Below are positions 35,194 to 61,818 of a stretch of DNA of 64,000 nucleotides, one piece after another. The position numbers and the translations under genes were made by a program. The number at the start of each line of letters is the position of its first letter. The first letter of the stretch is position 1. Source of the stretch: Anaeromyxobacter dehalogenans 2CP-C (GTDB taxonomy: Bacteria > Myxococcota > Myxococcia > Myxococcales > Anaeromyxobacteraceae); assembly GCF_000013385.1 (NCBI RefSeq), contig NC_007760.1, forward strand, positions 4,314,001 through 4,378,000. Direction: 5' to 3'. The notes beneath the pieces are model-generated. The model was not told the origin of the DNA, made no database searches, and saw only the letters and a program-made list of their open reading frames with translations.

Positions 35194-35250
35194 CCCACGA
35201 TACGTAGGTTTTCCCGCTTGCCTGCCCTACCCTCCCTGCCCAGGCGCCCC

Positions 35251-38200
35251 ATGATCCGCCCCTTCCGGCTGTTCGCCACCCTGGCGGCCTCGCTCGCGCT
35301 CGCGCTCGGCGTCACGGCCCGCTTCGTCCGCGCCGAGCCCGAGGCGCCTCCGCCGGCGGTCGCGTTCAAGGGCGCCGCGCCGGTGCCGGCGCGCGCCGGC
35401 GGCAACGGCGACTACCAGCTCGAGCGGCTGCCCATCCTGTCGAGGGTGATCCTCCAGGTGAAGGACAACTACGTCGATCCGGGCCGCGTGGATCCGAAGG
35501 GCATGGTGGTCGCGGCGCTCGAGGCGGTCGAGAAGACCGTCGCCGAGGTGATGGTGCAGGGCGACGAGAAGTCGCCGAAGCTGACGCTCACGGTGGGCAG
35601 CGCCTCCCGCGAGCTCGACATCTCCGGCGTGAAGAGCATCTGGGAGATCCGCACCGTCCTCGGCGAGGCGATGGGCTTCATCCAGCAGCACCTCGTCGCC
35701 CACAAGGACCTGCGCGAGATCGAGTACGCCGCGGTGAACGGCCTGCTCCAGACGCTCGACCCGCACACCGTCCTGTTCGACCCGAAGTCGTTCAAGGAGA
35801 TGAAGCTCCAGACCCGCGGCGAGTTCGGCGGGCTCGGCTTCGTGGTGGCGATGCGCGACAGCAACCTGACCGTGGTCCGGGTGCTCCGCAACACGCCGGC
35901 GCAGCGCGCCGGGGTGAAGCCGAAGGACGTCATCGCGCGCATCGAGGAGCAGTCCACCGTCAACATGGACCTGCAGGACGCGGTGGACCGCCTGCGCGGC
36001 CGGCCGCAGAGCAAGGTGGCGATCACGCTCCAGCGGCCGAACCAGGAGCCGCGGCGCCTGGTGCTCACCCGCGAGGTGATCAGCATCGAGACGGTGCCGC
36101 AGGCGCAGCTCCTCGACGGCAACGTGGGCTACATCAAGCTCACCCAGTTCTCCACCAACAGCACCCGCGACCTGGTGCAGGCGCTCCAGCAGCAGCGCGC
36201 CCAGGCCGGCGGCAAGCTGCAGGGCCTCGTGCTCGACCTGCGCGGCAACCCCGGCGGCCTGCTCGACCAGGCCATCTCGGTGTCCGACCTGTTCCTCTCC
36301 GACGGCGTCATCGTGAAGACCGTGGGCGAGGGCGACAAGCAGCAGATCCACGAGGTGAAGGAGGCGAGCGCCGAGCCGTCCGACCTCACCGGCCTGCCCA
36401 TCGTCGTCATCGTCAACAACAGCACCGCCTCCGCCAGCGAGATCGTCGCCGGCGCGCTCAAGAACAACGGGCGCGCGCTGGTGATCGGCCGCCAGAGCTT
36501 CGGCAAGGGCTCGGTGCAGGTGCTCTACGACTTCAGCGACCCGAGCCGCCCCGCCGACGAGGCCGCGCTCAAGCTCACCATCGCGCAGTACCTCACCCCG
36601 GGTGACGTCTCCATCCAGGAGGTGGGCATCACGCCGGACGTGCTGCTGCTGCCGGGCCGCGCGCTGAAGGAGCAGGTCAACTACTTCGCCCCGCCGCGCT
36701 CGATGGGCGAGGCCGACCTCGACCGCCACCTCACCAACCCGGCCGACCGCACCGTCCCCGAGGCGGCCCGCGCCGAGGCGCGCAAGAAGCGCCAGGACAA
36801 GCCGCCGCTCGAGCTGCGCTACCTGCTCGACGAGAAGGAGGACCTGGTCGCGAAGCAGCTCAAGAAGGACGCGGCGGCCGAGGCCTCCCCGCACGGCGAC
36901 GTGACCGAGCTGACGCCGGAGCAGCAGGAGGACGAGGACGCCGACGCCGATCCGGATCGCTTCGTCGAGGACTACCAGATCCGCTTCGCGAAGGACCTGC
37001 TGCGCCGCGCGCCCTACCCGGATCGCGCGCGCCAGCTCGAGGCCGCCAAGGCGCTCGTGTCCGAGCGGCACCAGCAGGAGGAGGCGCGCCTGCAGAAGCG
37101 CCTCGCCGAGCTGGGCGTGGACTGGGCCGACGGCCAGGCCGGCGGCCGCGGCCACCCGCGCGCGGTGGTGACCGTGTCGCCGCCGCCGGGCAAGGAGCTG
37201 CGCGCCGGCGAGACGATGCCGTGGACGGTCACGGTCGAGAACCGCGGCGACGCGCCGTTCCGGCGCCTCCGCGCCTGGACCACCGCGGAGAAGAACGGGC
37301 TGCTCGACCGCCGCGAGTTCGTGTTCGGCGCGGTGCGCCCGGGCGAGAAGCGCACCTGGACGGCGCCGGTGAAGCTGCCGAAGGGCATGGACACCCGCCG
37401 CGACGAGGTGACGCTCCACTTCGAGGACGAGGGCGGCAAGGCGCCGCCGGACGTCACCACCGCGGTGGCGGTCACCGAGGTGCAGAAGCCGGTGTTCGCG
37501 TTCAGCGCCCAGGTGGACGACGCGAAGGGCGGCAACGGCGACGGGCTCCCGCAGCGCGGCGAGACGTTCAACCTGCGGGTGGACGTGCGCAACGCCGGCC
37601 CGGGCGTCTCCGGCGACAAGACCTACGTGCTGCTGAAGAACCTCGGCGACGAGAAGCTCTTCATCAAGAAGGGGCGCGAGGTGATCGGCGCGCTCAGGCC
37701 GGGCGAGGTGAAGACCGCCACCATGGAGGTCGAGCTCCGCCGCGGCTCGAAGAGCGACACCTCGCCGGTCCGCGTCACCATCGTGGACGAGAAGATGGAC
37801 GAGTACGTCTCCGAGAAGCTCGACCTGCCGGTGGCGACGGACGAGCCGGCCCGCACCGCCGCGCACGGCGCGGTGCGCGTCGAGGTCGCGGACGCCCAGC
37901 TCCGCACCGGCGCGAGCGCCACGGCCCCGGTCATCGCGGCCGCGCGCAAGGGCGCGGTGCTGCCGGTGGACGCCCGCTTCGGCGAGTTCTACCGGGTCGA
38001 GTGGCAGAAGGGCCGCTACGCGTTCGCCGCCGAGGGCGAGGTGAAGCCGGTGAAGGCGGCCGGGCGGAGCGGCACCGTGGCCGAGGTGTGGCAGCGCGAG
38101 CCGCCGCGCATCGCGCTCTCGCCCGACCCGCTGAAGGGCGCGCCGGTGGTGGACGGCACCACCTTCAAGCTGCAGGGCTCGGCCAGCGTGCCGCCCTCGG

Positions 38201-38469
38201 CGGATCCGACCGCCCGCCTGCGCGACGTGTTCGTGTTCGTGAACGACCAGAAGGTCTTCTTCAAGGTCCAGCCCGACGCGGCCACCTCCTCGAAGATGGA
38301 CTTCAGCGCCGACCTGCCGCTCAAGCCCGGCAACAACGTCGTCACCGTGTTCGCCCGCGAGGACGACGAGTTCCAGAGCCGCCGGAGCGTGGTGGTGTTC
38401 CGCCGCACGCCGCCGGAGGTCGCCGCCGAGGCCGGGCGCGGGCAGGCGCAGCGGACCAACGCGCAGTAG
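35251..38469 (+). CDS. S41-family PDZ carboxyl-terminal processing protease with long C-terminal extension
   Basis: Predicted periplasmic protease of 1,072 residues. A signal peptide (MIRPFRLFATLAASLALALG) is followed by a helical region, a PDZ domain from about residue 192 (GGLGFVVAMRDS...), and the S41 core. The core has the nucleophile in STASASEIVAGAL (about Ser394) and the general-base lysine in SFGKGSVQ (about Lys419). The core ends near 480. A charged linker then leads to two CARDB/Ig-like beta domains (about 640-720 and 750-870), an SH3-like domain near 880-935, and a final beta domain. The usual family length is 400-700, so the C-terminal half is an addition, probably for binding substrate or cell wall. 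The ATG at 35251 is preferred to an upstream TTG. Confidence 0.9.
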   Translation: MIRPFRLFATLAASLALALGVTARFVRAEPEAPPPAVAFKGAAPVPARAGGNGDYQLERLPILSRVILQVKDNYVDPGRVDPKGMVVAALEAVEKTVAEVMVQGDEKSPKLTLTVGSASRELDISGVKSIWEIRTVLGEAMGFIQQHLVAHKDLREIEYAAVNGLLQTLDPHTVLFDPKSFKEMKLQTRGEFGGLGFVVAMRDSNLTVVRVLRNTPAQRAGVKPKDVIARIEEQSTVNMDLQDAVDRLRGRPQSKVAITLQRPNQEPRRLVLTREVISIETVPQAQLLDGNVGYIKLTQFSTNSTRDLVQALQQQRAQAGGKLQGLVLDLRGNPGGLLDQAISVSDLFLSDGVIVKTVGEGDKQQIHEVKEASAEPSDLTGLPIVVIVNNSTASASEIVAGALKNNGRALVIGRQSFGKGSVQVLYDFSDPSRPADEAALKLTIAQYLTPGDVSIQEVGITPDVLLLPGRALKEQVNYFAPPRSMGEADLDRHLTNPADRTVPEAARAEARKKRQDKPPLELRYLLDEKEDLVAKQLKKDAAAEASPHGDVTELTPEQQEDEDADADPDRFVEDYQIRFAKDLLRRAPYPDRARQLEAAKALVSERHQQEEARLQKRLAELGVDWADGQAGGRGHPRAVVTVSPPPGKELRAGETMPWTVTVENRGDAPFRRLRAWTTAEKNGLLDRREFVFGAVRPGEKRTWTAPVKLPKGMDTRRDEVTLHFEDEGGKAPPDVTTAVAVTEVQKPVFAFSAQVDDAKGGNGDGLPQRGETFNLRVDVRNAGPGVSGDKTYVLLKNLGDEKLFIKKGREVIGALRPGEVKTATMEVELRRGSKSDTSPVRVTIVDEKMDEYVSEKLDLPVATDEPARTAAHGAVRVEVADAQLRTGASATAPVIAAARKGAVLPVDARFGEFYRVEWQKGRYAFAAEGEVKPVKAAGRSGTVAEVWQREPPRIALSPDPLKGAPVVDGTTFKLQGSASVPPSADPTARLRDVFVFVNDQKVFFKVQPDAATSSKMDFSADLPLKPGNNVVTVFAREDDEFQSRRSVVVFRRTPPEVAAEAGRGQAQRTNAQ

Positions 38470-38489
38470 GCGCGCGGGTGGTCGCTCGG

Positions 38490-38530
38490 GGCCCCGGACC
38501 GCTCCCACGCGGCCGGGGCCTCCGTGTTTC
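38490..38530 (+). terminator. Hairpin after the S41 protease gene
   Basis: GGCCCCGG (38490-38497) pairs with CCGGGGCC (38513-38520), and CCG pairs with CGG inside the loop. TCCGTGTTTC follows. It lies 20 bases after the protease stop and before the giant TPR gene, so the two genes may be separate units. Confidence 0.5.
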
Positions 38531-38658
38531 CGGGGCCGGCGCGGCGCAGCCGAGCGCGACGGGCCTCCGCGCGCCCCCAGTACTACCGGGTCCCACCCCT
38601 GGCGCCGCGCATCCCGCTATTCGCCCCGGCGGGCCCCCTCCGGTAGAATTCCGCCCCC

Positions 38659-41600
38659 ATGGCGGAGGTGAGACAGCAGCCCGCCCCCGCCCACTCCTCG
38701 GAGCCCGGGGCGGGGTCCGGCTTCGAGCTGCGGCTCGAGCGCGGCGGCGCCTCGGTGCGGCTCGCGGATCGCGAGCTGGCGCCGGGGCTCACGCTCGAGT
38801 GCCTCACGCTCCGCGTCCCGGACGTCCACTTCCCCTTCGACGCGGGCGCCGGCGCGGCGCAGTTCCGGAGCCGGCTCACCGACCTCGTCGAGCTGCGCGT
38901 GGCGCTCACGCCCGCGCCGGTCGAGGCCGCCCTGGCCCGCGCCGGCCTGGGCGCGCTCGGGCTGGAGGGCGTCCGCATCGCGTTCCGCGAGGGCTTCGCC
39001 GAGCTGGCCGGGCGGATCTCCGCCGGGCCCGCGTTCACGCTGCAGGCCGGCCTGCTGCCGCGGGGCGAGCGGGGCCTGGGGCTCGTGTTCCACTCGCCGC
39101 GGATCTACGGGCCGGCGCCGCTCCCCGCCGCCGCGCTCCCGCACCTCGCCGCGCGGGCGCTCGAGGCGGCCGGCGCCGCGGCCCTCCCGTCCGACCCGCT
39201 CGCGCCGCTCCTGCGCGCCGCGCTCGCGCCGCGGGGGTGGAAGCTGCCGCGCCCGCACGGCGCGCGCCTTTCGCGGGCCGCCTTCGCGGCCGGGGTCGCG
39301 CACATCGCCTGGGAGGCGGCGGCCGGACCGGCCGAGACCGGCAGCGCGCCGGACCTGCTCGCGGCGGACGAGGGCGCGCGCGCGTTCGCGCCGGCCTGCG
39401 AGGCGCTGGCGCGCGGCGAGCCCGAGCACGCCCGCGAGGCGCTGCTCGCGCAGGGGTCCGCCGCCGCGTCCCACCCGTTCGCCGCCGAGCTGCTGCTCTC
39501 GCTCTTCCTGCTCGAGGATCGCTTCCACGACGAGGCGCTCGACCTCGCCGCGGCCTGGCTGCAGCGGCGCCCGGACTTCGCGCCCGCGCTCCTCGCCGAG
39601 GCGCTGGTGCGGCAGGCGCGCGGCGAGCCGGCCCGGGCCGCGCACGCGTTCTCGGCGCTCGCCGCGGCGGCCGGGGCGCGCGGCGAGGCGTTCGCGGCGC
39701 TCGCCGGCGCCGAGGCGGTGTTCGGCCTGGCGGGCGCGGACCCGGCCGACGCGCTGCGCGCCGCCGAGGTGGCGCTGGAGGTCCGGCGCGATCACGTCCC
39801 GGCGCTCCGCGCGCTGCGCGGGCTGTCGGCGGCCTCCGGCGACCGCGAGGCCCTCGTCCGCGCCGACCGGCGGCTGGTGGCCTACGACCCGGATCCGCAG
39901 GAGAAGGCCCGGGCCCACGCCGAGCTGGGCGAGCTGCTGCTCCACAGCGATCCGGCCGCGGCCCGGCTCCACCTCGACCAGGCGCTCCGCCTCGCCCCCG
40001 AGGACCCGGCCCCGCTCGCCGCGCTGGCGCGCGCCTGCGCCGCGGCGGGCGAGCCGCTCCGCGCGGTGCGCGCGCTCGACCGGCTGAAGGACGTCCACCT
40101 CGCCCGCGGCGATCGCGCCGCCGCGGCCGCCGCGGCGCTGGAGGCGGGCGCCGCGTGGGAGGGCCCGCTCGCGCACGCCGAGAACGCGCTGCTGCGCTAC
40201 CGGGCCGCCGCCGAGCTGGCCCCCGGCCCGGAGGTCCACGCGCGCGCGGCCCGCGCCGCCGAGGCGCTCGGGCACTGGGACGAGGCCGCCGACTTCCACG
40301 CGCTGGCGCTCGCCGGCCTCGACGCGGCCACGCCCGGCGGCGCCGCGCTGGCGGTGCGCACGCGGCTCGCGCTCGCCGGGGTCGCCGAGCGGCGGCTGGG
40401 CGATCCGGCCGCCGCGGCGGCCCACCTCGAGGCGGCGGCGGCGCTCGCGCCCGAGGACGCGGCGGTGCTGGAACGGCTGGTGGAGCGGCTCCGCGGGCTG
40501 GGGCGGCCGGCGGCCCTCGCCGGCGCGCTCGACCGCCGCGCCGGGCTGGAGCCGGACGCCGGCGCGCGGGCGGCGCTGCTGGCCGAGGCCGGCGCCGCGC
40601 TGCGCGCGGCCGGCCAGGACGGCGAGGCCGCCCGCCGCTTCGCGGCGGCGCTGGCGCTCGACGCCGGGTGCGCGCCGGCCCTCTCCGGCCAGGCCGAGCT
40701 CGCCGCCGCGCGCGGCGACGCCGCCTCGGAGCGCGAGGCGCTGGAGCGGCTGCGCGCGCTGACCGGGGACGCGGCGGCCGCCGCCGCGCTCGACGACCGC
40801 ATCGCGGCGGCCGCGGAGCGCGCCGGCGACCTCGCCGCGGCGCTCGCCGCCGCGGCGGCCGCCCGCGCGGCCCGCCCCGACCCGGCCCGCCTCGCGGCCG
40901 AGCTGCGGCTGGCGCGCCGGGTGGCGGACGCGACCACGGTGGCGGAGCTGCTGGCCGAGTCCGCCCGCCTCGCCGCCGCGGCCGGCGACGCGCCCACCGC
41001 GGCCGCGGCCTGGCTGGAGCGGGGGCGGCTGCTCGTGCCGGTGGATCCGCCCGCCGCCCTGGCGGCGCTCGCCGAGGCGCGGGCGGCGGCGCCGGGCGAC
41101 CCGGCGGTGCTGCGCGCCCAGGCGGACGCGGCCGCGCACGCCGGGGACGCCCGGCTCGCGCTCGGGGCGCTCCGCGCGCTGCTCGCGGGCGGCGCCGCCG
41201 ACGCCGCCGAGCTGGAGCTGCGCGCGGCGCGGGCGGCGCTGGACGCGGGCGAGCCGTCCGCGGCGCGCGAGCACGCCGAGCGGGCGCACGCGCTCGAGGC
41301 GCGCGGCGCGGGCGCGCTGCTCGCCGAGGTGCTCGCGGCCACCGGCGACGACGCGGCGCGGGCGGCGCTGCTGGAGCGGCTCGGCCGCTGGCTGGAGGCG
41401 GCCGAGCTGCACGCGCGCGCGGGCGACCTGCCGCGCGCGCTCGCCGCGTGCGAGCGCGCCGCCGACGATCCCGCCACCGCCCAGGCCGCCCTGGCCCGCC
41501 TCGCCGAGCTCCGGGCGGCGGGCGGCGACGCGCGCGGCGCCTCGCGGGCGCTGCTGCTGCTCGCCCGGCTCACCGGCGGGCGCGAGGGCGCCACCCTGGC

Positions 41601-44600
41601 GCTGCGCGCCCACGGGCTCGACCCGGCCGGCGAGGCGCTCGACCTGGCCGCGCAGCTCGACCCCGCGTTCGCGCCCGCCCGGGCCCGGCGCGCCGCCGGG
41701 CGCGTGGCGGAGGATCCGCGCGGCGCGCTCGGGGACGCCGAGGCGGCGCTGGCCGGCGAGGCGCTCCCGGCCGCGGACCGCGCCGGCCTGCTCGCGCTCG
41801 CGGCCGCGGCGGCCGCCGCCTGCGGCGACGCCGACGCGGCCCGCCGCCACCTGACCGCCTACTGCGAGGCAGTCCCCGGCGACGACACGGCGCTGGCGCG
41901 CCTCGCGGGCTTGCACCGCCGCGCCGGCGATGCGGCCGGGCTGGAGGCGGCGCTCCGCCGGCGGCTCCCGCTGGCGCGCGGCGCCGACGCGGCCGCGGTG
42001 CGGGCCGAGCTGGGCGCGCTCCTCGCCGGCCGCGGCGAGGCCGCCGAGGCCGCGCGGCTCGCGGGCGAGGCGATCGAGTTCGACCCGGGCTGCCTCGCGG
42101 CGCTGCGGGTGCTGTGCGCGGCCCCCTGCGCCGGCGCGCTCGCCCCGGCGCGGGCGCTCGATCTCCTCGGCCGGCTCGCCGCCCACCCGCTCGCGGACGC
42201 CGCCGAGGCCGCGACCGCCCAGGCCGGGCGCGCCCGGCTGCTGGCCGCCGCCGGCGACCTCGCGGGCGCGCTGGACGCCGCCCGCGCCGCGGCCGGGGCC
42301 GGGGACGACGACGCGGCGCTGGAGCTCCGCGCCGAGCTGGCGGCCCGCGCCGGCGCGCCCGCCGAGGCGGCCCGCGCGCTGCTCGCCCGGGCGCGCCGCG
42401 CGCGCGACCGCGGCGAGGCCGACGCCGGCGACCGGCTCGCCGAGGCCGGGCTGGCGCTGCTCGCCGCCGGCGGCGCCGACGACGCCCCCGGCGCCGAGGC
42501 CGCGCTGCGCGAGGCGCTCGCGCTCGCCCCGGGCCGCGAGAGCGCCCGCGCCGCCCTCGCCGCCCTCGCCGAGCGCGCCCGGGGGCGCGGGGACGCCGCC
42601 GCCGAGCGGGACGCGCTCGCCGCGCTGGTGCCGCTGCTCCCCACCGGCGCCCGGCCGGCCGCCCACCTGCGCCGCGCCGCGCTCGCGGCCGCGCTCGGCG
42701 ACCGGGCCGGCGCGCTCGCCGCCGCCGAGGAGGCGCGCGCGCTCGCGCCGCGGGACCCCGCCGCGGTCGAGGCGGCGCGCGCGGCCGCCGAGGCCGCGGG
42801 CGACCTCGGCGCCGTGGCCGACCGGCTGGAGGAGCTGGCCGCGCTCGAGCCGGCGTCGGCCGGCCGCCGGCGCCTCGAGCGCGCCGGCCTGCTCACGCGC
42901 CTCGGGCGCGCCGCCGAGGCCGACGCCGCCTACGCCGCGGCGATCGCGGCGCTCCCGCCGGATCGCGGGCTCGCCGAGGAGCACGCCGCGTTCCGGCGCG
43001 CGCGCCTGCCCGCCCGCTCCGCCGCCGAGCCGCTCGAGGCCTACGCGCGCCGCGCGCCGGCGCCCCGCGAGGCGGCCCGGGCGCTCCGCGCCGCCGCGGC
43101 GCTGGCGCTCGCGCAGGGCGACCTCGGCGGCGCGATCCGCGCGGCGCGCCGCGCCTACGCCCGCACCCAGGACGACCTCGCGTTCGCGGCGCCGCTGCTC
43201 GCGCGCGTGCTCTACCTGGGCGGCGCGTCCGGCGAGGCGCTGGTGGTGCACCGGCGCCTGCTCGAGGCCGGGCTGGGCGCGCTCCCGCCCGAGGACGCGC
43301 TCGCGCTGGCGCGCCAGCTCGCCGAGCTGGCCGAGGACCGGGGCGAGCGCGCGCTCGCGCTCGCCGCGCTGACGGAGGTGCTGGCCCGCCGTCCCCAGGA
43401 TCTCGACGCGGCGGTGCGCCGGCTGGCGCTCGACGAGGACCCGGAGCGCGGCGCCCGCGCCGTGCTCGCGGCGGCGGAGGCGGCCCGGTCCGGCGCGGCG
43501 CGCGCCGACGCGCTCGGGCGCGCCGCCACCGCGCTGCTCGCGGCCGGCCGGCCCGAGCTCGCCCGCGACCTCTACCGCCGCGCCCGCGCCGAGGCCGCCG
43601 CCGACCCGGTCCGCAGCGCCGCGCTGGCCGGGGCCCGCGCCGAGGCGCTGGCGCGGGCCGGCGCGCCCGAGCCCGAGCGGCTCGACGCGCTGGGCGAGGC
43701 GGCCGACCTCGCGCTCGACGCGGGCGAGCCGGAGGCCGCGCGCCGGCTGCTCGCGGACGCGGTGGTGCTGGCCCGCGCGCTCGACCGCCCGGCGGAGGCC
43801 GCCCGGCTCTCGCTCCAGCTCGACGCGCTCGCGGCCGCGGCCGGCGACTTCGCCGCGGCGGCCGCGCACGCCCGCGCCGCCGGCGCGCTGCTGCTCGACG
43901 CCGGCGATCCGGCCGGCGCCGCCGAGGCGCTGGACCGCGCGGTCGCCGCCGCCCCCGGCGACGCGGAGGGGGTGGAGCTGCTGGAGCGCGCCGCGCGCGC
44001 GCTCGGCGACGCGGGCGGCCCGCACCTCGCCCGCGCGCTCGCCGCCCGGGCCGCCGCGGCCGCGCCCGGCCCCGCCCGCGCCGCGGCGCTGGTGGCGCTC
44101 GCGGACGTGCACGCCGCCGCCGGGGCCACCGGGGACGCCGAGGCCGCGCTCCGCGAGGCGCTCGCCCACGACCGCGCGAGCGCCGCGGCCCGCGAGCGGC
44201 TCACGGCGATCCTGACCGCGACCGGCCGCGACCCGGAGGTCGCGCGGATGCTGCTCGACCGCGCCGCCCGCGAGGCCGATCCGGCCCTGCGCGCCCGAAT
44301 GCGGCGCGACGCGGTCATGCGGCTCGCCGCCTCGCCGGATCCCGCCGACCGCGCCCGCGCCGCCGAGGCCTGCGCCGCGCTCGCCACCGAGGGCCCCGCC
44401 GACCCGGTGGCGCTCCGCGCGGCCGCGGCGCTGCTCCGCGACCTGGGCCGCCGCGAGGAGGCCATCCCGCTGCTCGCCGCGCTGGTGCGCGCCGACCCGG
44501 ACGACGAGGACGCCGCCCGCGAGCTGGCGGACGCGTACGCCGACCGCCACCTGGAGCGGGCCGAGCTGTTCCTCGGGCGCGCCGCGCACGCCCGCGGTCC

Positions 44601-47600
44601 GGCGCGCGCCGCCCGCCTGCGCGAGGCCGCGCGGGCGCTGCACGCCGCCGGCGAGGACGAGCGGGCGCGGGCCGCGCTGCGCGACGCGTTCGACGCCTGG
44701 CCGGCGGACGACGGCGCGTTCGTGGCGGCGCTCCGCGAGGCGGCCGCCGAGCCGGAGCGGCTCGACGGCGTGCTCTCCGCCCGCGCCGCGGCGGTGCCGG
44801 CCGAGGCGGCGAGCTGCCACCGCGCGCGCGCCGACGCGCTGCTCGCGTTCGGCGAGGGCGAGCGCGCCGCGGCCGCCTACGAGGCGGCGCTCGCGGCCGC
44901 GCCCGGCGACGTGGAGACGCTCGCGGCGCTGGCCGCCTGCCTCGCCGCGACCCGCGGGCCCCCCGCCGCCGCCGAGCTGGACCGGCGGCTGGTGGCGGGC
45001 GCCGAGGAGGCGCGCGGCGCCGTGCCCGCCTCCGCCGAGGCGGCGGCGCGCTACCGCCTCGGCCTCGCCGCGTGGGCCGAGGGGCGCGCCTCCGACGGCA
45101 TCGCGCACCTGGAGCGGGCGCTCGCGCTCGCGCCCGGGGACGAGCGCGCCGGCATCGCCTGGGCGGCGCTGGCGCACGGGCACGCCGCGCTGGGCGACGC
45201 GGACCTGGCGCTCGCGGCGGCCCGGAGCCGGGCCGAGCGCGCGCTCGCGCTGGGCCTGGCCGAGGAGCGCAGGGTGGCGCTGGAGGCGGCGGCGGAGCTG
45301 GCGGAGACGCTCGGCGACGCCGGGCGCGACGCGGCCGACCTGCTGGAGGCCCTGCTCCAGCTCCGCGCCCGCGAGGGCGAAGGGCCCGGGGCGCTCGCGG
45401 CGCTGGCCGGCCGCGCCGCGGCGGCGCTGGACGCGGCCGGCGCGCCGGCGCGGGCCCGCGAGGCGCGCGCGCTGGGCGGCCTCGAGCCGGCCGCGCCGGA
45501 CGCCGCCCCGCCGCCCGCGGCGCCGCCCGCCGGCGCGCGCGAGGCGGCCCGCGCGGCCGCGGAGCGCGCGCTCTCCTCCGACGATCCCGCCGAGCGCGCC
45601 GAGGCGTTCACCGTCGCGGCCGAGGCGCTGGCCCGCGCCGGCGCGCCCGACGAGGAGGTGCGCGGCGCGCTCGAGCTCGCCGCCGGCGCCGACCCGGACG
45701 CGCCCGGCCCGTGGCGCGCGCGGGCGCGCCTGGAGGCCGCCTGGGGCGAGCCGCTCGCCGCGGCCCGCGCCCTCCTGTCGGCCTCGATCCGCAGCGACGG
45801 CGACGAGGCGGCGCGCAGCGCGCTCGAGGCCGCCCGCCTGTTCGAGGACGCCGGCGCGCACGGCGACGCCGCGCGGGCGTACCGGGCCGCGGTGCTGGCC
45901 CGGCCCGGCTGCGTGCCCGCCCGCACCGTGCTCGCCGAGGAGGCGCTCGCCGCCGGCGACCCGGGCGCCGCGGTCGAGCACCTCCGCGCCATCCCCGAGG
46001 CCGGGCTCGCCCCCGACGCGCGCACCGCGCACCGCCGGCGGCTCGCGCGCGCCCTGGACGCCGCCGGCCGCGCGGACGAGGCCGAGGCGCTCTACGCCGA
46101 GCTGCTCGCCGCCGACCCCGGCGACCCCGAGGCGTTCGAGCGCGCCGCCGCGCTGGCGCTCGCGCGCGGCGCCCTCGACGCGTGGCTCGACCTGGCCCAG
46201 CTCCACGAGCAGGCGCTCGCGGCCTGGGGCCAGACGGCGCGGCGCCGCGACCTGCGCCAGGCGCGCGGCGACCTGTTCGCCTCGGCCGGGCACCTCGACG
46301 CGGCCCGCGGCGCGTTCCTGTCGGTGCTGGAGCTCGACCCGGTGTACCCGCCCGCGCTGGACGCGCTCGCCGCGCTGGACGGGCGGCGCGACGGGTGGGC
46401 GGAGGCCGCCGCGGGCCTGGCGGCCGAGGCGGGCGCGGCCGCGGATCCGGCCGAGGCCGCCGCGCTGCACCTGCGGCGCGCCCGCATCCTGCTCGACCGG
46501 CTCGGCGACGAGGACGCCGCGGCCGCGGCGCTCCACGACGCGCTCGCGTCGGCGCGCGAGAGCGGCACCGCCGCCGCGCTGCGCGGCGCCGAGGAGGCGG
46601 AGGCGCTGCTCGCCGGGATGGGCCGCCCGGCCGCGGCCGCCGCGGCGGAGCCGGGCGAGGTCCACCGGCGCGCGCCCGCCGCCGATCCGGTGGCCGAGGT
46701 GCTGCGCGCGCAGGCGGCCGTGGCCGAGGGCGTGGCCCGGGCCGAGCTGCTGGAGCGGCTCGCCGGCCACCTCGAGCGCGCCGGGGACGCGGCCGGCGCC
46801 GCCGACGCGCTGCTCGAGGCGCTGGAGGCCGACCCCGAGCGCGACCTCACCTGGTCGTGGCTCCTGTCGGTGGCGGCCGGCGACCCGGCGCGGCTCGCCC
46901 GCGCCGAGGCCATCCGCGCCCGCAGCGCCGCCCCCGCCCCCGAGCTGCCGCCGCCCGCCGGGTGGTCGGACGAGGAGATCGCGCTCGCGGCCGAGGCGCC
47001 CGGCGCGCTGCCCGCCACGCCGGCGGTGGGCGCCGAGCTCGGGCCGGATCACCCCCTGCCGGTCGCGGAGCTGGCCGCCCGCGGGCGCGCCTGCCTGCAG
47101 GCCGCGGAGTGGGAGCCGGCGCGCGCCTGGCTCGCGGAGGCGCTGGCCCGCGACCCGTCGGACCTGACGCTCGCCCGCGACCTCTCGCGCGCCGCCGAGA
47201 AGCTGGGCCGCTTCGACGACTACGTGCGCCTGGGCGAGGCCTGCGCCGACGCCATCGCCGCCTACGACCCGCTCGCCGCCGCCGCGCGGCTGCGCCACTT
47301 CGCCGAGCTGCTCCGCACCCGGCTCGCCGACCCGGAGCGCGCCGCGGTGATGCTGGAGAAGGCGCTCTCGCTCGTGCCGGACGACCTCGAGGCGCAGCGC
47401 GAGCTGCTCGTGGCCCGGGCGGCGCGCCCGGAGACGCAGGCCCGCGCCGCCGAGGGCTGGCTGGAGCTGGCGCGGCGCGATCCCTCCGACGCGACCGCGC
47501 TCGCGGAGGCGAGCGCGCTGTGCGCGGACCTCGCGGCCGCCGAGCGGACCGGCGCGGATGCGTCCGCCCGCCTCGCCGAGCGCGCGCGCCTGGCCGCCTC

Positions 47601-48465
47601 GCTCGCCGCCTTCGCCGATCCGTCGCGCAGCGCGCCCGGCGGGGCGCCGGTGGCCGCGCACCTGCCGGCCGCGCTCCGCGAGCGGGTGGCGGCGCCGGGC
47701 GCGAACGGCCCCTGCGCGCGCCTGCTCTCGCTGCTCGCGCCCTGGCTCGAGCCGCTGTTCCCGGCCGACCTCGCCGCCCGCGGCGCCGGCCCGGCCGACC
47801 GGCTCGCGCCCGCCGCCGCCCCGGCGCTGCACGCCGCGCTGGAGCGGGCCGCCCGCGCGCTGGAGGCCCGCCCGCACGCGGCGCTCCTGGGCGCCCGCCC
47901 CGGGCGCGAGGTGGTGATCGAGAACACCCGCCCGCCCTCGGTGGTGCTGCCGGCCGGGCTCGCGGACCTGCCGGAGGGCGCGCTCGCGTTCCTGGCCGCC
48001 CGCACGCTCGACCTCGTCGAGCACGGCTGGGCGCTGCTCGGGAAGTTCGCGCCGCGCGACGCCGCCATCCTGCTCGAGCTGGCCTGCCGCTTCGGCGGCG
48101 GCGCGCCGCCCGCCATGGGCCTACCGGCCGCGCACGCCGGCGCGTTCCTCGCCGCGCTGGAGCGGACCGTGCCGGGCGAGGTGAGCGCCACCGCGGCCGC
48201 GCTGGCGGGCCCGGCCGCGGCGGAGCTGCGTACCCTCGACCCGCGCGCGCTCGCGGCGGCGGTGCGCCGGACCGCGAACCGGGTGGGCCTGCTGCACGCC
48301 GGCGACCCGGGCCACGCCCTGCGCACGCTGGCGCTCCTCGACCGGCGCCTCGACGGCGGGCCGCTCGATCCGGCCGAGGCGCTCGCGCTCCCCGACCTCC
48401 GCGACCTCGCGCTCCTGGCCCTGTCGGATCCGTTCGTCGAGCTCCGGCTCGCGGTGCTAGGCTAG
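38659..48465 (+). CDS. Giant alanine-rich TPR-like repeat protein (3,268 residues)
   Basis: A 9.8-kb gene starting at ATG 38659. Residues 20-165 form a beta-rich domain (LRVPDVHFPFDAG, LTDLVELRVALTPAPVEAAL, FELRLERGG) without a signal peptide, possibly like the lipid-binding LmeA/DUF2993 type. Residues 170-2900 are dozens of degenerate helical repeats with TPR-like spacing (for example LAPEDPAPLAALARACAAAG and HLERALALAPGDERAGIAWA). Residues 2950-3268 are a different domain with VVIENTRPPSVVLPAGLADL and AFLAARTLDLVEHGWALLGK, which resembles an M48-type region lacking HExxH. Function unknown; a scaffold role is likely. Two other very long frames overlap it, but they are Arg/Gly/Pro-rich and look non-coding. 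The ribosome site is weak. Confidence 0.85.
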   Translation: MAEVRQQPAPAHSSEPGAGSGFELRLERGGASVRLADRELAPGLTLECLTLRVPDVHFPFDAGAGAAQFRSRLTDLVELRVALTPAPVEAALARAGLGALGLEGVRIAFREGFAELAGRISAGPAFTLQAGLLPRGERGLGLVFHSPRIYGPAPLPAAALPHLAARALEAAGAAALPSDPLAPLLRAALAPRGWKLPRPHGARLSRAAFAAGVAHIAWEAAAGPAETGSAPDLLAADEGARAFAPACEALARGEPEHAREALLAQGSAAASHPFAAELLLSLFLLEDRFHDEALDLAAAWLQRRPDFAPALLAEALVRQARGEPARAAHAFSALAAAAGARGEAFAALAGAEAVFGLAGADPADALRAAEVALEVRRDHVPALRALRGLSAASGDREALVRADRRLVAYDPDPQEKARAHAELGELLLHSDPAAARLHLDQALRLAPEDPAPLAALARACAAAGEPLRAVRALDRLKDVHLARGDRAAAAAAALEAGAAWEGPLAHAENALLRYRAAAELAPGPEVHARAARAAEALGHWDEAADFHALALAGLDAATPGGAALAVRTRLALAGVAERRLGDPAAAAAHLEAAAALAPEDAAVLERLVERLRGLGRPAALAGALDRRAGLEPDAGARAALLAEAGAALRAAGQDGEAARRFAAALALDAGCAPALSGQAELAAARGDAASEREALERLRALTGDAAAAAALDDRIAAAAERAGDLAAALAAAAAARAARPDPARLAAELRLARRVADATTVAELLAESARLAAAAGDAPTAAAAWLERGRLLVPVDPPAALAALAEARAAAPGDPAVLRAQADAAAHAGDARLALGALRALLAGGAADAAELELRAARAALDAGEPSAAREHAERAHALEARGAGALLAEVLAATGDDAARAALLERLGRWLEAAELHARAGDLPRALAACERAADDPATAQAALARLAELRAAGGDARGASRALLLLARLTGGREGATLALRAHGLDPAGEALDLAAQLDPAFAPARARRAAGRVAEDPRGALGDAEAALAGEALPAADRAGLLALAAAAAAACGDADAARRHLTAYCEAVPGDDTALARLAGLHRRAGDAAGLEAALRRRLPLARGADAAAVRAELGALLAGRGEAAEAARLAGEAIEFDPGCLAALRVLCAAPCAGALAPARALDLLGRLAAHPLADAAEAATAQAGRARLLAAAGDLAGALDAARAAAGAGDDDAALELRAELAARAGAPAEAARALLARARRARDRGEADAGDRLAEAGLALLAAGGADDAPGAEAALREALALAPGRESARAALAALAERARGRGDAAAERDALAALVPLLPTGARPAAHLRRAALAAALGDRAGALAAAEEARALAPRDPAAVEAARAAAEAAGDLGAVADRLEELAALEPASAGRRRLERAGLLTRLGRAAEADAAYAAAIAALPPDRGLAEEHAAFRRARLPARSAAEPLEAYARRAPAPREAARALRAAAALALAQGDLGGAIRAARRAYARTQDDLAFAAPLLARVLYLGGASGEALVVHRRLLEAGLGALPPEDALALARQLAELAEDRGERALALAALTEVLARRPQDLDAAVRRLALDEDPERGARAVLAAAEAARSGAARADALGRAATALLAAGRPELARDLYRRARAEAAADPVRSAALAGARAEALARAGAPEPERLDALGEAADLALDAGEPEAARRLLADAVVLARALDRPAEAARLSLQLDALAAAAGDFAAAAAHARAAGALLLDAGDPAGAAEALDRAVAAAPGDAEGVELLERAARALGDAGGPHLARALAARAAAAAPGPARAAALVALADVHAAAGATGDAEAALREALAHDRASAAARERLTAILTATGRDPEVARMLLDRAAREADPALRARMRRDAVMRLAASPDPADRARAAEACAALATEGPADPVALRAAAALLRDLGRREEAIPLLAALVRADPDDEDAARELADAYADRHLERAELFLGRAAHARGPARAARLREAARALHAAGEDERARAALRDAFDAWPADDGAFVAALREAAAEPERLDGVLSARAAAVPAEAASCHRARADALLAFGEGERAAAAYEAALAAAPGDVETLAALAACLAATRGPPAAAELDRRLVAGAEEARGAVPASAEAAARYRLGLAAWAEGRASDGIAHLERALALAPGDERAGIAWAALAHGHAALGDADLALAAARSRAERALALGLAEERRVALEAAAELAETLGDAGRDAADLLEALLQLRAREGEGPGALAALAGRAAAALDAAGAPARAREARALGGLEPAAPDAAPPPAAPPAGAREAARAAAERALSSDDPAERAEAFTVAAEALARAGAPDEEVRGALELAAGADPDAPGPWRARARLEAAWGEPLAAARALLSASIRSDGDEAARSALEAARLFEDAGAHGDAARAYRAAVLARPGCVPARTVLAEEALAAGDPGAAVEHLRAIPEAGLAPDARTAHRRRLARALDAAGRADEAEALYAELLAADPGDPEAFERAAALALARGALDAWLDLAQLHEQALAAWGQTARRRDLRQARGDLFASAGHLDAARGAFLSVLELDPVYPPALDALAALDGRRDGWAEAAAGLAAEAGAAADPAEAAALHLRRARILLDRLGDEDAAAAALHDALASARESGTAAALRGAEEAEALLAGMGRPAAAAAAEPGEVHRRAPAADPVAEVLRAQAAVAEGVARAELLERLAGHLERAGDAAGAADALLEALEADPERDLTWSWLLSVAAGDPARLARAEAIRARSAAPAPELPPPAGWSDEEIALAAEAPGALPATPAVGAELGPDHPLPVAELAARGRACLQAAEWEPARAWLAEALARDPSDLTLARDLSRAAEKLGRFDDYVRLGEACADAIAAYDPLAAAARLRHFAELLRTRLADPERAAVMLEKALSLVPDDLEAQRELLVARAARPETQARAAEGWLELARRDPSDATALAEASALCADLAAAERTGADASARLAERARLAASLAAFADPSRSAPGGAPVAAHLPAALRERVAAPGANGPCARLLSLLAPWLEPLFPADLAARGAGPADRLAPAAAPALHAALERAARALEARPHAALLGARPGREVVIENTRPPSVVLPAGLADLPEGALAFLAARTLDLVEHGWALLGKFAPRDAAILLELACRFGGGAPPAMGLPAAHAGAFLAALERTVPGEVSATAAALAGPAAAELRTLDPRALAAAVRRTANRVGLLHAGDPGHALRTLALLDRRLDGGPLDPAEALALPDLRDLALLALSDPFVELRLAVLG

Positions 48466-48473
48466 CCGGCCCC

Positions 48474-49049
48474 GTGCCCCGCCGTCCGTCCCACCGCGCG
48501 CCGCGCGCGCTCACCCTGGCAACCCTGCTCGCCGCGCTCGGCGCCCCCGCGTGCAACAGCGACGGCGGCGAGGACTGCCCGGGCGAGGTGATCGGCGTGT
48601 TCGGCCTGCAGGCCCGCCGGGTGGACGCCTCGACGGCCTGCACGGTGGGGCCTGAGGGCGGCTGGGCCGCGGCGGTGCCGGCGACCATCCCGGCGGAGCT
48701 CGCGGCCGATGCGGCGGCGGTGTTCCCGGTGACGCTGGCGCAGGACCCGCGCACCGGCGCGGTGGCGCTCTGCACCGGGCGCGAGCACGAGGCGGTGCTG
48801 CGCGGGGCGCGGAGCGGCGACCACGTCCAGGCCTCGGCGGCGGCCGGCGAGGCGGTCCTGAGCGCCTGCGCCGCCACCTGCACCGCGGCGCTCACCGTCG
48901 CGATCGAGGGCGACCTCGCGTTCCCGGCGGGCGGGCCGCCGACGCTCGCGGGGACGCTGGTGGAGACCTACGGGGCGACCGGCGGCGCGTGCGCGCCCTG
49001 CGTGCTCCCCTGCACCGCGAGCTACGCGTTCACCGCGGTGGCCCGCTAG
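48474..49049 (+). CDS. Small cysteine-rich secreted protein or lipoprotein
   Basis: A 191-residue protein starting at GTG 48474, eight bases after the giant TPR gene. It has a signal peptide (RALTLATLLAALGAPAC) with a weak lipobox, then an acidic start to the mature part (NSDGGEDC). Several further cysteines lie in CTVGPEGGW, ALCTGREH, SACAATCTAAL and CAPCVLPCTASY, suggesting disulfides. The short spacing suggests translation with the TPR gene. I do not recognise the family. The reading frame is open far upstream only because it shadows the giant gene. Confidence 0.65.
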   Translation: MPRRPSHRAPRALTLATLLAALGAPACNSDGGEDCPGEVIGVFGLQARRVDASTACTVGPEGGWAAAVPATIPAELAADAAAVFPVTLAQDPRTGAVALCTGREHEAVLRGARSGDHVQASAAAGEAVLSACAATCTAALTVAIEGDLAFPAGGPPTLAGTLVETYGATGGACAPCVLPCTASYAFTAVAR

Positions 49050-49058
49050 GATCCGGAG

Positions 49059-49763
49059 ATGGCGAAGGCGACGAGCGAGGCGCGGCGCGCGGTGGTGCTC
49101 CTGTCGGGCGGGCTCGACTCGAGCACCTGCCTGGCGGTGGCGCGCGCCGAGGGGCTGGAGGCGCACTGCCTCTCGGTGGACTACGGGCAGCGGCACAAGG
49201 GGGAGCTGGCGCGGGCGCGGCGGATCGCGCGGGCGCTCGGCGCCGCCGGCCACCGCGTGGTGAAGGTGGACCTCTCCGCGTTCGGCGGGTCGGCGCTCAC
49301 CGACGCGGCCATCGCGGTGCCGAAGGGGCGCAGCGAGGCGAGGATGGCCCGGGACATCCCGGTCACCTACGTGCCGGCCCGCAACACGGTGATGCTCTCG
49401 CTCGCGCTCGCCCACGCCGAGGTGATCGGCGCGGAGCAGATCTTCGTGGGCGTGAACGCCATCGACTACTCCGGCTACCCGGACTGCCGCCCGGCGTTCC
49501 TGCATGCGTTCGAGCGGCTGGCGAAGGTCGCGACCCGGGCCGGCGTGGAGGGGCATCCGCTCCGCATCCGGGCGCCGCTGCTCCGGCTCTCGAAGGCGGG
49601 GATCGTCCGGCTGGGCACGAAGCTCGGCGTCCCGTACCGCATGACCCTCTCGTGCTACGACCCGATCCGCGGCCGCGCCTGCGGCCGATGCGATGCCTGC
49701 AGCCTGCGCCGAAAGGGATTTGCCGAGGCCGGGGTGCAGGACCCAACTCAATACGCGAAGTGA
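49059..49763 (+). CDS. queC: 7-cyano-7-deazaguanine synthase
   Basis: ATP-dependent enzyme making preQ0, the precursor of queuosine in tRNA. The 234 residues have the PP-loop motif [15 protein letters not shown] at the N-terminus, [36 protein letters not shown], and the zinc-binding C-terminus [21 protein letters not shown] with four cysteines. The other preQ0 genes (queD, queE, folE) are not in the window. It starts nine bases after the preceding gene. Confidence 0.96.
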
Positions 49764-58908: not shown

Positions 58909-61818
58909 ATGGCCACCATCCTCGAGAAGTACGAGCAGATCCTCGCGGCCGACCCCCGGTCGCGCATCTTCGTCGAGCTCGCCCGCGCGCTGCTCGAGCG
59001 CGGGCAGCACGCGCGCGCCATCGAGATCTGCCGGCAGGGCCTCGAGCACCACCCGTCCTCCATCCTGGGGCGCGTGATCTGGGGACGGGCGCTCCTCGAG
59101 TCGGGTGACACGAAGGACGCGAACGATCAGTTCGAGATCGCCATCGCGGTCGATCCGGGCAGCCCGTACGCGTACAACCTGGTGGGCGAGGCGCTGGTCG
59201 CGAAGGGGCTCTTCCGCGACGCGCTGCCCGTGCTCCTGCGGGCCGTGGAGCTGCAGCCGGCGGACGCCCGCGTGCGCGGCTGGCTGGAGCAGGCGAAGCG
59301 CGGCGTGCGCGAGGACGGCGCCGCGCCGGGCGCCGAGGACGCGCCCGCGCCGGCGCGCGCCGCCGCGCCGGACGAGGTGACCGAGCCGTACCGGCCGCTC
59401 ACCGACGAGCCGCCGAAGGCGGAGGTCCCGCCGGAGCTCGAGCCGACCGCGACGTTCGACCTCCCGCCGCGCGCGGCGCCCCGGCCGCGGACGGCCGCTT
59501 CACCCACCGTCGCGCCGACGCCCCCGGTGCTGGCGCGCGAGCCGGGCCGGTCGCCGCCGGCCGACGGCGGCGACGCGGCGCTCGAGGCCGCGCTCGCCTT
59601 CGACGTCGCCTACCCGCGGAACGCCGCGCTGCCCGCGGACGAGCCGCTCGACGCGCCCGCAGCGCCGGCCAGCGTGGTCGAGCCCCCGGACGCGGACGAG
59701 CCGCTGGGCCCGCCCGAGCAGCCGGCGCCTCCGCCCGCGGCGGCGCCTGCGCCGCCCCGCCCGCCGCCCATCCGCGCCACCCCGCCGCCGCTCGCGCGCG
59801 ACGAGCTGCCCGCGTCGCTGCTCTCGCTCATCCCCGGCCCCCCGCCGCGCGGCGGCGCGCCGACGGGCGCCGCGACGGCAGCGGCGCCCGCGGCCCGCGC
59901 CCGTCCGGCGGCCGCGCCGGACGCGGCCGAGGCGGAGCGGATCGCGGCGGAGTACGAGCGCGAGGTGCGCGAGCGCCTGCTCGCCGCGCCCGAGCCGCCC
60001 CCCTCCTTCCTGCGCCGCCACCGCCGCGCGGTGCTGGCCGGCGCGGCCGTGTTCGCGCTCCTCGCCGGCGCCGCGGTGTACCTGGTGGTGGACGCGCGCG
60101 TCGCCGCCCGGAACGCGGTGGGCGCCGCCGCGCGCGCCCGCGCCGGGCTCGCCCGCGACACCGCCGGCTCGCTCGCCGAGGCGGCGCGGCTGCTCGCCGA
60201 CGCGCGGCGGATGGGCGCCGGCCCGGAGGTGACCTCGCTCGCCGCGCAGGTCGCGGCGGTGCGCGCCTCCGAGTTCGGCGACGAGGCGGCCAGCGCGCTC
60301 GCCTCCGAGCTCATGGCCTCGGACGCGGCCGGCGACGGCGCGCTCGCCGCGCGCTACCTGCTCGCCGCGCAGCCCGGGGAGCGCGCCGCGGCCGAGGCGG
60401 CCATCCTCTCCGCCCCGCCCTCCTCCGAGCCGCTGATCCAGGCGCTCGCCGGCCGCATCCTGGCGAGCCGCGGCGAGCGCGAGGCGAGCCGCGGCCGCCT
60501 CGAGATCGCCGCGCACGCGAACCCGCCGCTGCTCCGGGCGCTCTCCGACCTGGGCGACGCGGCGCTCGCGGCCGGCGACGCCGAGGGCGCGCTCGCGACC
60601 TACGCCGCGGCGCTCTCCGCCCACGCCACCCACCCGCGCTCGGTGGTGGGGGCGGCCGAGGCGCGCCTGGCGCTGGGCCGGGACCTCGACGCGGCCCGCG
60701 CCGCGCTCGCCGCGGTGGAGGCCGACGAGGGCAGCGCCCCGCCGCGCGACCTGCGGCTGCGCTTCGAGCTCGCCTCCGCCCGCGTCCTCGCCGCCACCGG
60801 CGACGCCGCCGGCGCGGCCGCCCGCCTCGCCCGCGCGGCCCAGGCGCTCGGTGACAGCGCGCCGCTCGCCGCCGCGCTCGCCGACGTGCACCTCGCCGCG
60901 CGCGCCTGGGACCGGGCCGAGGCCGCCGCCGCCCGCGCGGTGGCGCTCGCGCCGAAGGACGAGGGCGCGAAGGTGCTGCTGGCCCGCGCCCGCATCGGCC
61001 GCGGACGCCTCGCCGAGGCGCTCGCCGCCACCGAGGGCGCCGAGGGCCGCGCCGTGCGCGTGCAGCGCGCCATCGCGCGCTACCGGCTGGGCCAGTTCGC
61101 CGCGGCCCGCGCCGAGCTGGAGCGCACCGCCCGCGACGGCCGCATGCCGGCCGAGGCCGCGGTCTGGTACGCGCTCACCGACGTGGCCCAGGGGCGCGCC
61201 GCCCGCGGGCGCGCGCTGCTCGAGAAGCTCGCCGCCACCCGCTCGCCGCCGCCGCTCGCGCACGTGGCGCTGGGCCGGGCGCTCGAGGCCGAGGGGCGCG
61301 CGGCCGACGCCGAGAAGGCGTACCGCGACGCGGTCACCCGCGATCCGCGCGCCCCGGAGCCGGCGCTGGCGCTCGGGGACCTGCTGCTGCGCCGCGGGCG
61401 CGCGGGCGACGCGCTCCCGTTCCTGGAGAAGGCGGTGGCGCTCGATCCGGCCGATCCGGAGGCGCGCCGCGCGCTCGGCGCGGCCCGGCTCGCCGGCGGC
61501 GAGGCCTCGGCGGCCCGCGCCGAGCTGGACGCGGTGCTGCTGGCGCGGCCGAAGGACGCCGCCGCGCTGCGCCTGCTCTCCGCGGCCTGGCTCGCGGAGG
61601 CGCAGCCGGCGGAGGCCCGCCGCGCCGCCGAGCGCGGCCTCGCCGTCGCGCCGCGGGATCCGGCGCTGCTGCTCGCCGGGGCGCGGGCGGCGCTCGCCGA
61701 CGGGGACCGCGCCGTGGCCCGTGCCCTCGCCGAGCGCGCCCTGAAGGCGGGAGCCCGGGGCGAGGACGCCGCCGAGGCCCGGCGCCTGGCGGCGACCCAG
61801 ACGGCGAAGCGCAGGTAG
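58909..61818 (+). CDS. Membrane-bound TPR protein
   Basis: A 969-residue protein in three parts. Residues 1-130 are clear TPR repeats (ILEKYEQILAADPRSRIFVELARALLERGQ, HARAIEICRQGLEHHPSS, DALPVLLRAVELQPADA). A long Pro/Ala-rich linker (about 150-360) leads to one membrane helix (AVLAGAAVFALLAGAAVYLVV, residues about 373-393). A periplasmic part with many degenerate TPR-like helices follows to the end. It may sense or gather envelope proteins across the membrane. The sequence style is close to the giant TPR protein at 38659. The start at 58909 has no strong ribosome site. Function unknown. Confidence 0.83.
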   Translation: MATILEKYEQILAADPRSRIFVELARALLERGQHARAIEICRQGLEHHPSSILGRVIWGRALLESGDTKDANDQFEIAIAVDPGSPYAYNLVGEALVAKGLFRDALPVLLRAVELQPADARVRGWLEQAKRGVREDGAAPGAEDAPAPARAAAPDEVTEPYRPLTDEPPKAEVPPELEPTATFDLPPRAAPRPRTAASPTVAPTPPVLAREPGRSPPADGGDAALEAALAFDVAYPRNAALPADEPLDAPAAPASVVEPPDADEPLGPPEQPAPPPAAAPAPPRPPPIRATPPPLARDELPASLLSLIPGPPPRGGAPTGAATAAAPAARARPAAAPDAAEAERIAAEYEREVRERLLAAPEPPPSFLRRHRRAVLAGAAVFALLAGAAVYLVVDARVAARNAVGAAARARAGLARDTAGSLAEAARLLADARRMGAGPEVTSLAAQVAAVRASEFGDEAASALASELMASDAAGDGALAARYLLAAQPGERAAAEAAILSAPPSSEPLIQALAGRILASRGEREASRGRLEIAAHANPPLLRALSDLGDAALAAGDAEGALATYAAALSAHATHPRSVVGAAEARLALGRDLDAARAALAAVEADEGSAPPRDLRLRFELASARVLAATGDAAGAAARLARAAQALGDSAPLAAALADVHLAARAWDRAEAAAARAVALAPKDEGAKVLLARARIGRGRLAEALAATEGAEGRAVRVQRAIARYRLGQFAAARAELERTARDGRMPAEAAVWYALTDVAQGRAARGRALLEKLAATRSPPPLAHVALGRALEAEGRAADAEKAYRDAVTRDPRAPEPALALGDLLLRRGRAGDALPFLEKAVALDPADPEARRALGAARLAGGEASAARAELDAVLLARPKDAAALRLLSAAWLAEAQPAEARRAAERGLAVAPRDPALLLAGARAALADGDRAVARALAERALKAGARGEDAAEARRLAATQTAKRR

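Follow-up and report, generated by a model that had tools for sequence, protein, structure and literature searches.

The gene at positions 38659–48465 on the forward strand of the window (the whole 64-kb stretch of DNA analysed here, which belongs to a genome forming a single contig of 5,013,479 bases) encodes a real, conserved and uncharacterised myxobacterial protein of 3268 aa, called the giant below. This protein is a long TPR-type alpha-solenoid, and comparison of sequence profiles showed that its C-terminal domain (C-domain) is homologous to that of the gliding protein GltI/AgmK. The new point is that a putative pseudo-protease cap ties the giant to a gliding scaffold.

The reading frame begins with ATG and ends with TAG, and its locus gave the strongest coding-frame signal in the 64-kb window. 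Orthologues of 2.7–5.8 thousand aa were found across Myxococcota. We compared the giant with the orthologue of the nearest complete relative (94% identity), the only such genome found, and the dN/dS of this single pair was 0.186 overall, 0.19 in the N-terminal domain (N-domain), 0.198 in the repeats and 0.075 in the C-domain. These values indicate selection on every part of the protein, which is strongest on the C-domain; the giant is under purifying selection. Very long shadow ORFs (for example, 37221–49049) also occur in non-coding frames around the gene because the GC content is 79–87%, so that arguments from ORF length would mislead here. The initial annotation had called a repeat ORF of 3,268 residues, which was borne out by the ORF itself, the coding-frame signal, dN/dS and the repeat period described below. 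No literature on the giant itself, experiments included, was found in the main text of open-licence papers.

The rod between the end domains (residues ~220–2940; positions 39316–47478, forward strand) consists of approximately 75 degenerate TPR-type hairpins. We counted repeats by helix-breaker periodicity; a consensus TPR HMM failed on the Ala-rich sequence. Helix breakers in residues 241–2940 recurred with a period of ~17.9 residues and remained in phase to lag 144, and this coherence over at least 144 residues indicates a two-helix solenoid of ~75 units. The units are degenerate, with a mean length near 36 residues (TPR, ~34). Pfam detected few TPRs in the window protein (TPR_14, 1.1e-5) because more than 30% of the rod is alanine; a low-GC orthologue was matched by TPR_2 at 6.8e-32. 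Thus, the giant has both the tandem two-helix repeats and the TPR profile matches by which TPR proteins are recognised. No signal peptide was evident and no TM segment was seen (highest 19-residue hydropathy mean, 1.72); the giant is probably cytoplasmic. The earlier description of a giant TPR-like scaffold with distinct end domains is therefore supported by the period, by the Pfam TPR matches in an orthologue and by the end-domain models, and its suggestion that a protein with no signal peptide might be cytoplasmic agrees with the lack of any evident signal peptide or TM segment.

The N-domain (residues ~20–219; positions 38716–39315, forward strand) was delimited by family alignment and was predicted to be beta-rich (AF2, pLDDT 84). 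It was detected in 137 of 195 Myxococcota genomes, as a single copy in nearly all of them and almost always at the head of the giant ORF, and as a sequence family it is specific to the giants. Scans of 26 N-domain and 25 C-domain members against Pfam and NCBIfam gave no significant family match. Further, the N-domain had no significant relative among PDB sequences, its model matched nothing below E 0.1 among PDB folds, and a viral fold library yielded no match. The TULIP proteins LBP, BPIFA1 and JHBP were among the insignificant fold matches. An LmeA-like N-domain was considered and dropped, since the Pfam LmeA model had no match anywhere in the genome that contains the window. Of the lipid-binding beta fold proposed initially, the beta-rich character thus stood, and the lipid-binding part found no significant match among PDB folds or with LmeA. 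As to structural relatives of the end domains, whose absence would have counted against that proposal, the N-domain has no significant fold relative and the C-domain is M48-like.

The C-domain as modelled comprises residues 2941–3268 (positions 47479–48462, forward strand); a family alignment and homology with the GltI C-domain support it, and its structure was predicted confidently (AF2, pLDDT 93.6); the core matched by the family profile spans 47674–48456 on the same strand. In a genome-wide HMM search, the C-domain profile matched the genome's own HtpX-type M48 peptidase (E 2e-4). HELAH of HtpX aligned opposite an [A/G]R[A/T] stretch with a near-invariant Arg, which in the window protein is LAARTLDL (47992–48015, forward strand) at the place of the M48 HExxH. 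None of 46 homologous C-domains contained HExxH. A spaced motif, A[DN]xxGxxxxGD, is common to the C-domain and HtpX: ANRVGLLHAGDP of the giant (48274–48309, forward strand) is spaced like ADETGARISGDP of HtpX, and the preceding Glu ligand is missing in the giant. The equal spacing of HtpX LADETGARISGDP and giant TANRVGLLHAGDP is a correspondence drawn by eye outside the HMM alignment. When the C-domain model was searched against PDB using Foldseek, BepA was the best match (E 0.9), followed by selecase and HtpX, and all matches were insignificant, with E of at least 0.9. Comparison with M48 using hhalign reached at most 30% and was likewise insignificant; we therefore grade an M48 origin as strongly suggested only. 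The C-domain is very probably a degenerate M48 domain. The HtpX match, the spaced motif, the BepA fold match and the missing HExxH together strongly suggest that it arose from an M48 metallopeptidase by loss of the zinc site, in which case it would serve for binding rather than catalysis. An M48-like C-terminal region without HExxH had been noticed from the letters of the gene, and the HtpX match, the spaced motif, the best (insignificant) fold match to BepA and the absence of HExxH from all 46 domains support that observation.

We considered whether the giant could be a functional protease that combines TPRs with M48 as BepA does, since the M48-like domain follows the TPRs and BepA is the best fold match. 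However, the 46 domains without HExxH, the absence of a Glu ligand at the aligned place and the lack of a signal peptide in the giant, whereas BepA is periplasmic, all contradict this reading. It is refuted at the sequence level, and we assign it almost no probability.

The C-domain was present in 174 of 195 Myxococcota genomes at 1–4 copies each, and the copies belong to three protein families, namely the giant, a TPR protein of ~1,700 aa and a protein of ~4,100 aa. We identified the last as GltI because it is 4,132 aa long in a Myxococcaceae genome (the length of MXAN_4863) and has GltJ-, GltG-, GltE- and GltD-like neighbours (PMC3169522). The C-domain profile matched the 4,104-aa GltI of the window's genome (E 5e-22; G000:C1:3794148-3806462, with a GltJ-like neighbour; L181, L182) as well as Myxococcaceae GltI (4,132 aa; G118:C1:6132945-6145343; L184, L185). 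When C-domains were compared using hhalign, the giant matched GltI at 96% and the ~1,700-aa paralogue at 99%. In Myxococcaceae giants, the cap has diverged such that only ~79 columns align (hhalign 69–87%). In the C-domain tree, GltI and the short paralogue each formed a clade (99/100 and 99/95, respectively) separate from the giants. No glt or agl gene, gltJ included, lies close to the window gene, which sits between an S41 peptidase gene and a lipoprotein-queC pair. Thus, the cap makes the giant a paralogue of GltI, but the protein falls outside the GltI family, because its locus and clade differ and its N-domain is absent from GltI. The third family bearing the same cap (~1,700 aa; L067:9426-14567, L077:3302-8416 and L078:8135-13210) adjoins a CinA/MoaB-like gene in several Myxococcales and was not found in the window's genome by a genome-wide search with the C-domain profile.

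GltI/AgmK (MXAN_4863) has been described as a giant TPR protein without a signal peptide or TM segment (PMC3169522) and as a large scaffold inside the cell that connects the Agl motor with MreB (PMC13104615). In a different review, AgmK has 3,812 residues and is classed as a transmembrane protein (PMC9120999), and the placement of GltI is therefore not uniform across the literature. We also observed that GltI/AgmK itself ends in a putatively degenerate M48-like domain. No mention of this domain was found in open-licence gliding papers, and we found no description of the origin of the GltI end module and no earlier report of the link between the giant and GltI C-domains in open-licence papers. 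The initial annotation had concluded that no known system explains the giant; this was not borne out, as its C-domain is common to the giant and the GltI gliding-motor scaffold.

Upstream of the giant lies a gene for an S41 C-terminal processing peptidase of the MXAN_5808 family (35218–38469, forward strand; TIGR03900, 1294 bits), which adjoins the giant in Anaeromyxobacteraceae only. A gene for a Cys-rich predicted lipoprotein of 191 aa (48474–49049, forward strand) starts 8 bases past the stop codon of the giant and is followed by queC (49059–49763, forward strand), a conserved neighbour. The order giant-lipoprotein-queC is kept through Anaeromyxobacteraceae and Myxococcaceae and was not seen outside the taxonomic order. 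In families f2 and f9, profile searches detected the lipoprotein next to queC in genomes without the giant, which indicates that the firm pair is lipoprotein-queC. The Cys-rich lipoprotein thus travels with queC, a 7-cyano-7-deazaguanine synthase gene (48474–49763). The downstream cysteine-rich protein, the conservation of which had been proposed as a check on a partnership, belongs to a family conserved in the taxonomic order, but it is not tied to the giant. A second TPR protein of 969 aa is encoded at 58909–61818 of the window, and a homologue of it (E 8e-47) occurs near the giant in L071:14163-18134.

Of 119 genomes from the order with a completeness of at least 90%, 103 contained both the giant and GltI, 1 the giant only, 5 GltI only and 10 neither, according to presence sets compiled by hand; common descent confounds this pattern. 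Several lineages, including families f8 and f9, have GltI but no giant. In family f2 the giant was not found and GltI is also absent. In genus g3, which belongs to the same family as the window's genome and includes one complete genome, the giant, the lipoprotein and GltI are all missing. The S41 gene and queC abut there, with the S41 stop codon overlapping the queC start (L204:2660-6792 and L205:1099-5495), and no remnant of the giant or lipoprotein was detectable. Genus g4 carries shrunken giants of 764 and 1,305 aa (L206:4600-6894 and L207:5467-9384), in which the N-domain is partial and the C-domain intact. The loss in g3 and the shrinkage in g4 indicate that the giant is dispensable in some lineages and that rod length is not fixed. 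A gene broken in close relatives had been named as a sign against the protein; its absence from g3 and shrinkage in g4 make it dispensable, not unreal. The giant is retained in Myxococcaceae genomes of 2.1–2.7 Mb. A GltI-specific profile detected GltI in two of three small Myxococcaceae genomes, where the general C-domain profile had missed it.

On balance, we consider it probable that the giant is a GltI-like cytoplasmic scaffold with a pseudo-protease cap, single-copy in Myxococcota. It would work as GltI is described, as a cytoplasmic rod holding partners along its solenoid, and its end modules, including the pseudo-M48 cap, would dock the rod to membrane- or cytoskeleton-associated complexes. 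The giant may be part of the machinery for surface motility or cell polarity in myxobacteria. Several results speak against this explanation, namely the lack of linkage to glt or agl genes, the lineages with GltI and no giant, the rods of 764 and 1,305 aa in g4, the cap with only ~79 alignable columns in Myxococcaceae, and the insignificance of the M48 link by both hhalign and Foldseek. We further put forward, tentatively, that the giant cytoplasmic rods of Myxococcota form a family with one inherited pseudo-M48 cap. In this family, GltI would be just the one that gliding recruited, and the window protein, spread across the phylum, would use its own N-domain to serve a second motility, polarity or envelope machine that has not been described.

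It is unlikely that the giant is instead a structural component of the Agl-Glt machine itself that has so far escaped notice and shares the partners of GltI via the C-domain. The two proteins have this domain in common and co-occur, both are absent from g3 and f2, and surface motility has been reported for strain 2CP-C (PMC2330069). However, the giant is unlinked to any glt cluster, GltI is kept without it in f8 and f9, and the joint absences may reflect lineage history. A housekeeping scaffold unrelated to motility, in which the GltI-like cap is an old shared building block, seems to us rather doubtful: it accords with a phylum-wide, single-copy protein and with a third paralogue bearing the same cap in a different gene context, whereas the giant was lost outright in g3 and not found in f2. 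Its retention in the 2.1–2.7 Mb genomes would also fit, but two of three small genomes keep GltI, so that retention fails to separate the readings; we accordingly dropped it as an argument against a gliding role.

It is quite improbable that the giant partners the downstream lipoprotein from the cytoplasm and acts in lipoprotein or lipid handling with an N-domain that binds lipid. The lipoprotein stands beside queC in f2 and f9, both without the giant; export is predicted for the lipoprotein and not for the giant; the N-domain has no significant fold match; and the two genes are not adjacent outside the taxonomic order. These points oppose the gene order kept through Anaeromyxobacteraceae and Myxococcaceae, the loss of both genes in g3 and the TULIP lipid-binding proteins among the weak N-domain fold matches. 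We therefore rejected the lipoprotein as a dedicated partner, since despite the conserved order and joint loss it occurs beside queC without the giant.

If a dead M48 cap is indeed common to GltI and two other myxobacterial TPR proteins, the evolution of the gliding-machine scaffold becomes open to comparison, and the shared module expressed alone would be a direct test for the docking target of GltI.

Among known systems, LmeA and TULIP proteins resemble the giant in its beta-rich N-domain and the insignificant fold matches LBP, BPIFA1 and JHBP, but neither a profile nor a significant fold match connects them, though they may be remotely related. The M48 peptidases HtpX and BepA are alike in the sequence match to HtpX, the motif order and the best fold match, and BepA also joins M48 to TPR; in the giant, the repeats precede the M48-like domain. 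The giant differs from both in lacking HExxH and the Glu ligand and in being far larger. The ~1,700-aa paralogue shares TPRs and the same C-domain, but it is approximately half as long, lacks the N-domain and occupies another locus. GltI is likewise a giant TPR protein without a signal peptide or TM segment, has a homologous C-domain and occurs in the same genomes as the window giant, but it has no such N-domain, its gene is in the glt cluster next to that of GltJ, and its clade is a separate one.
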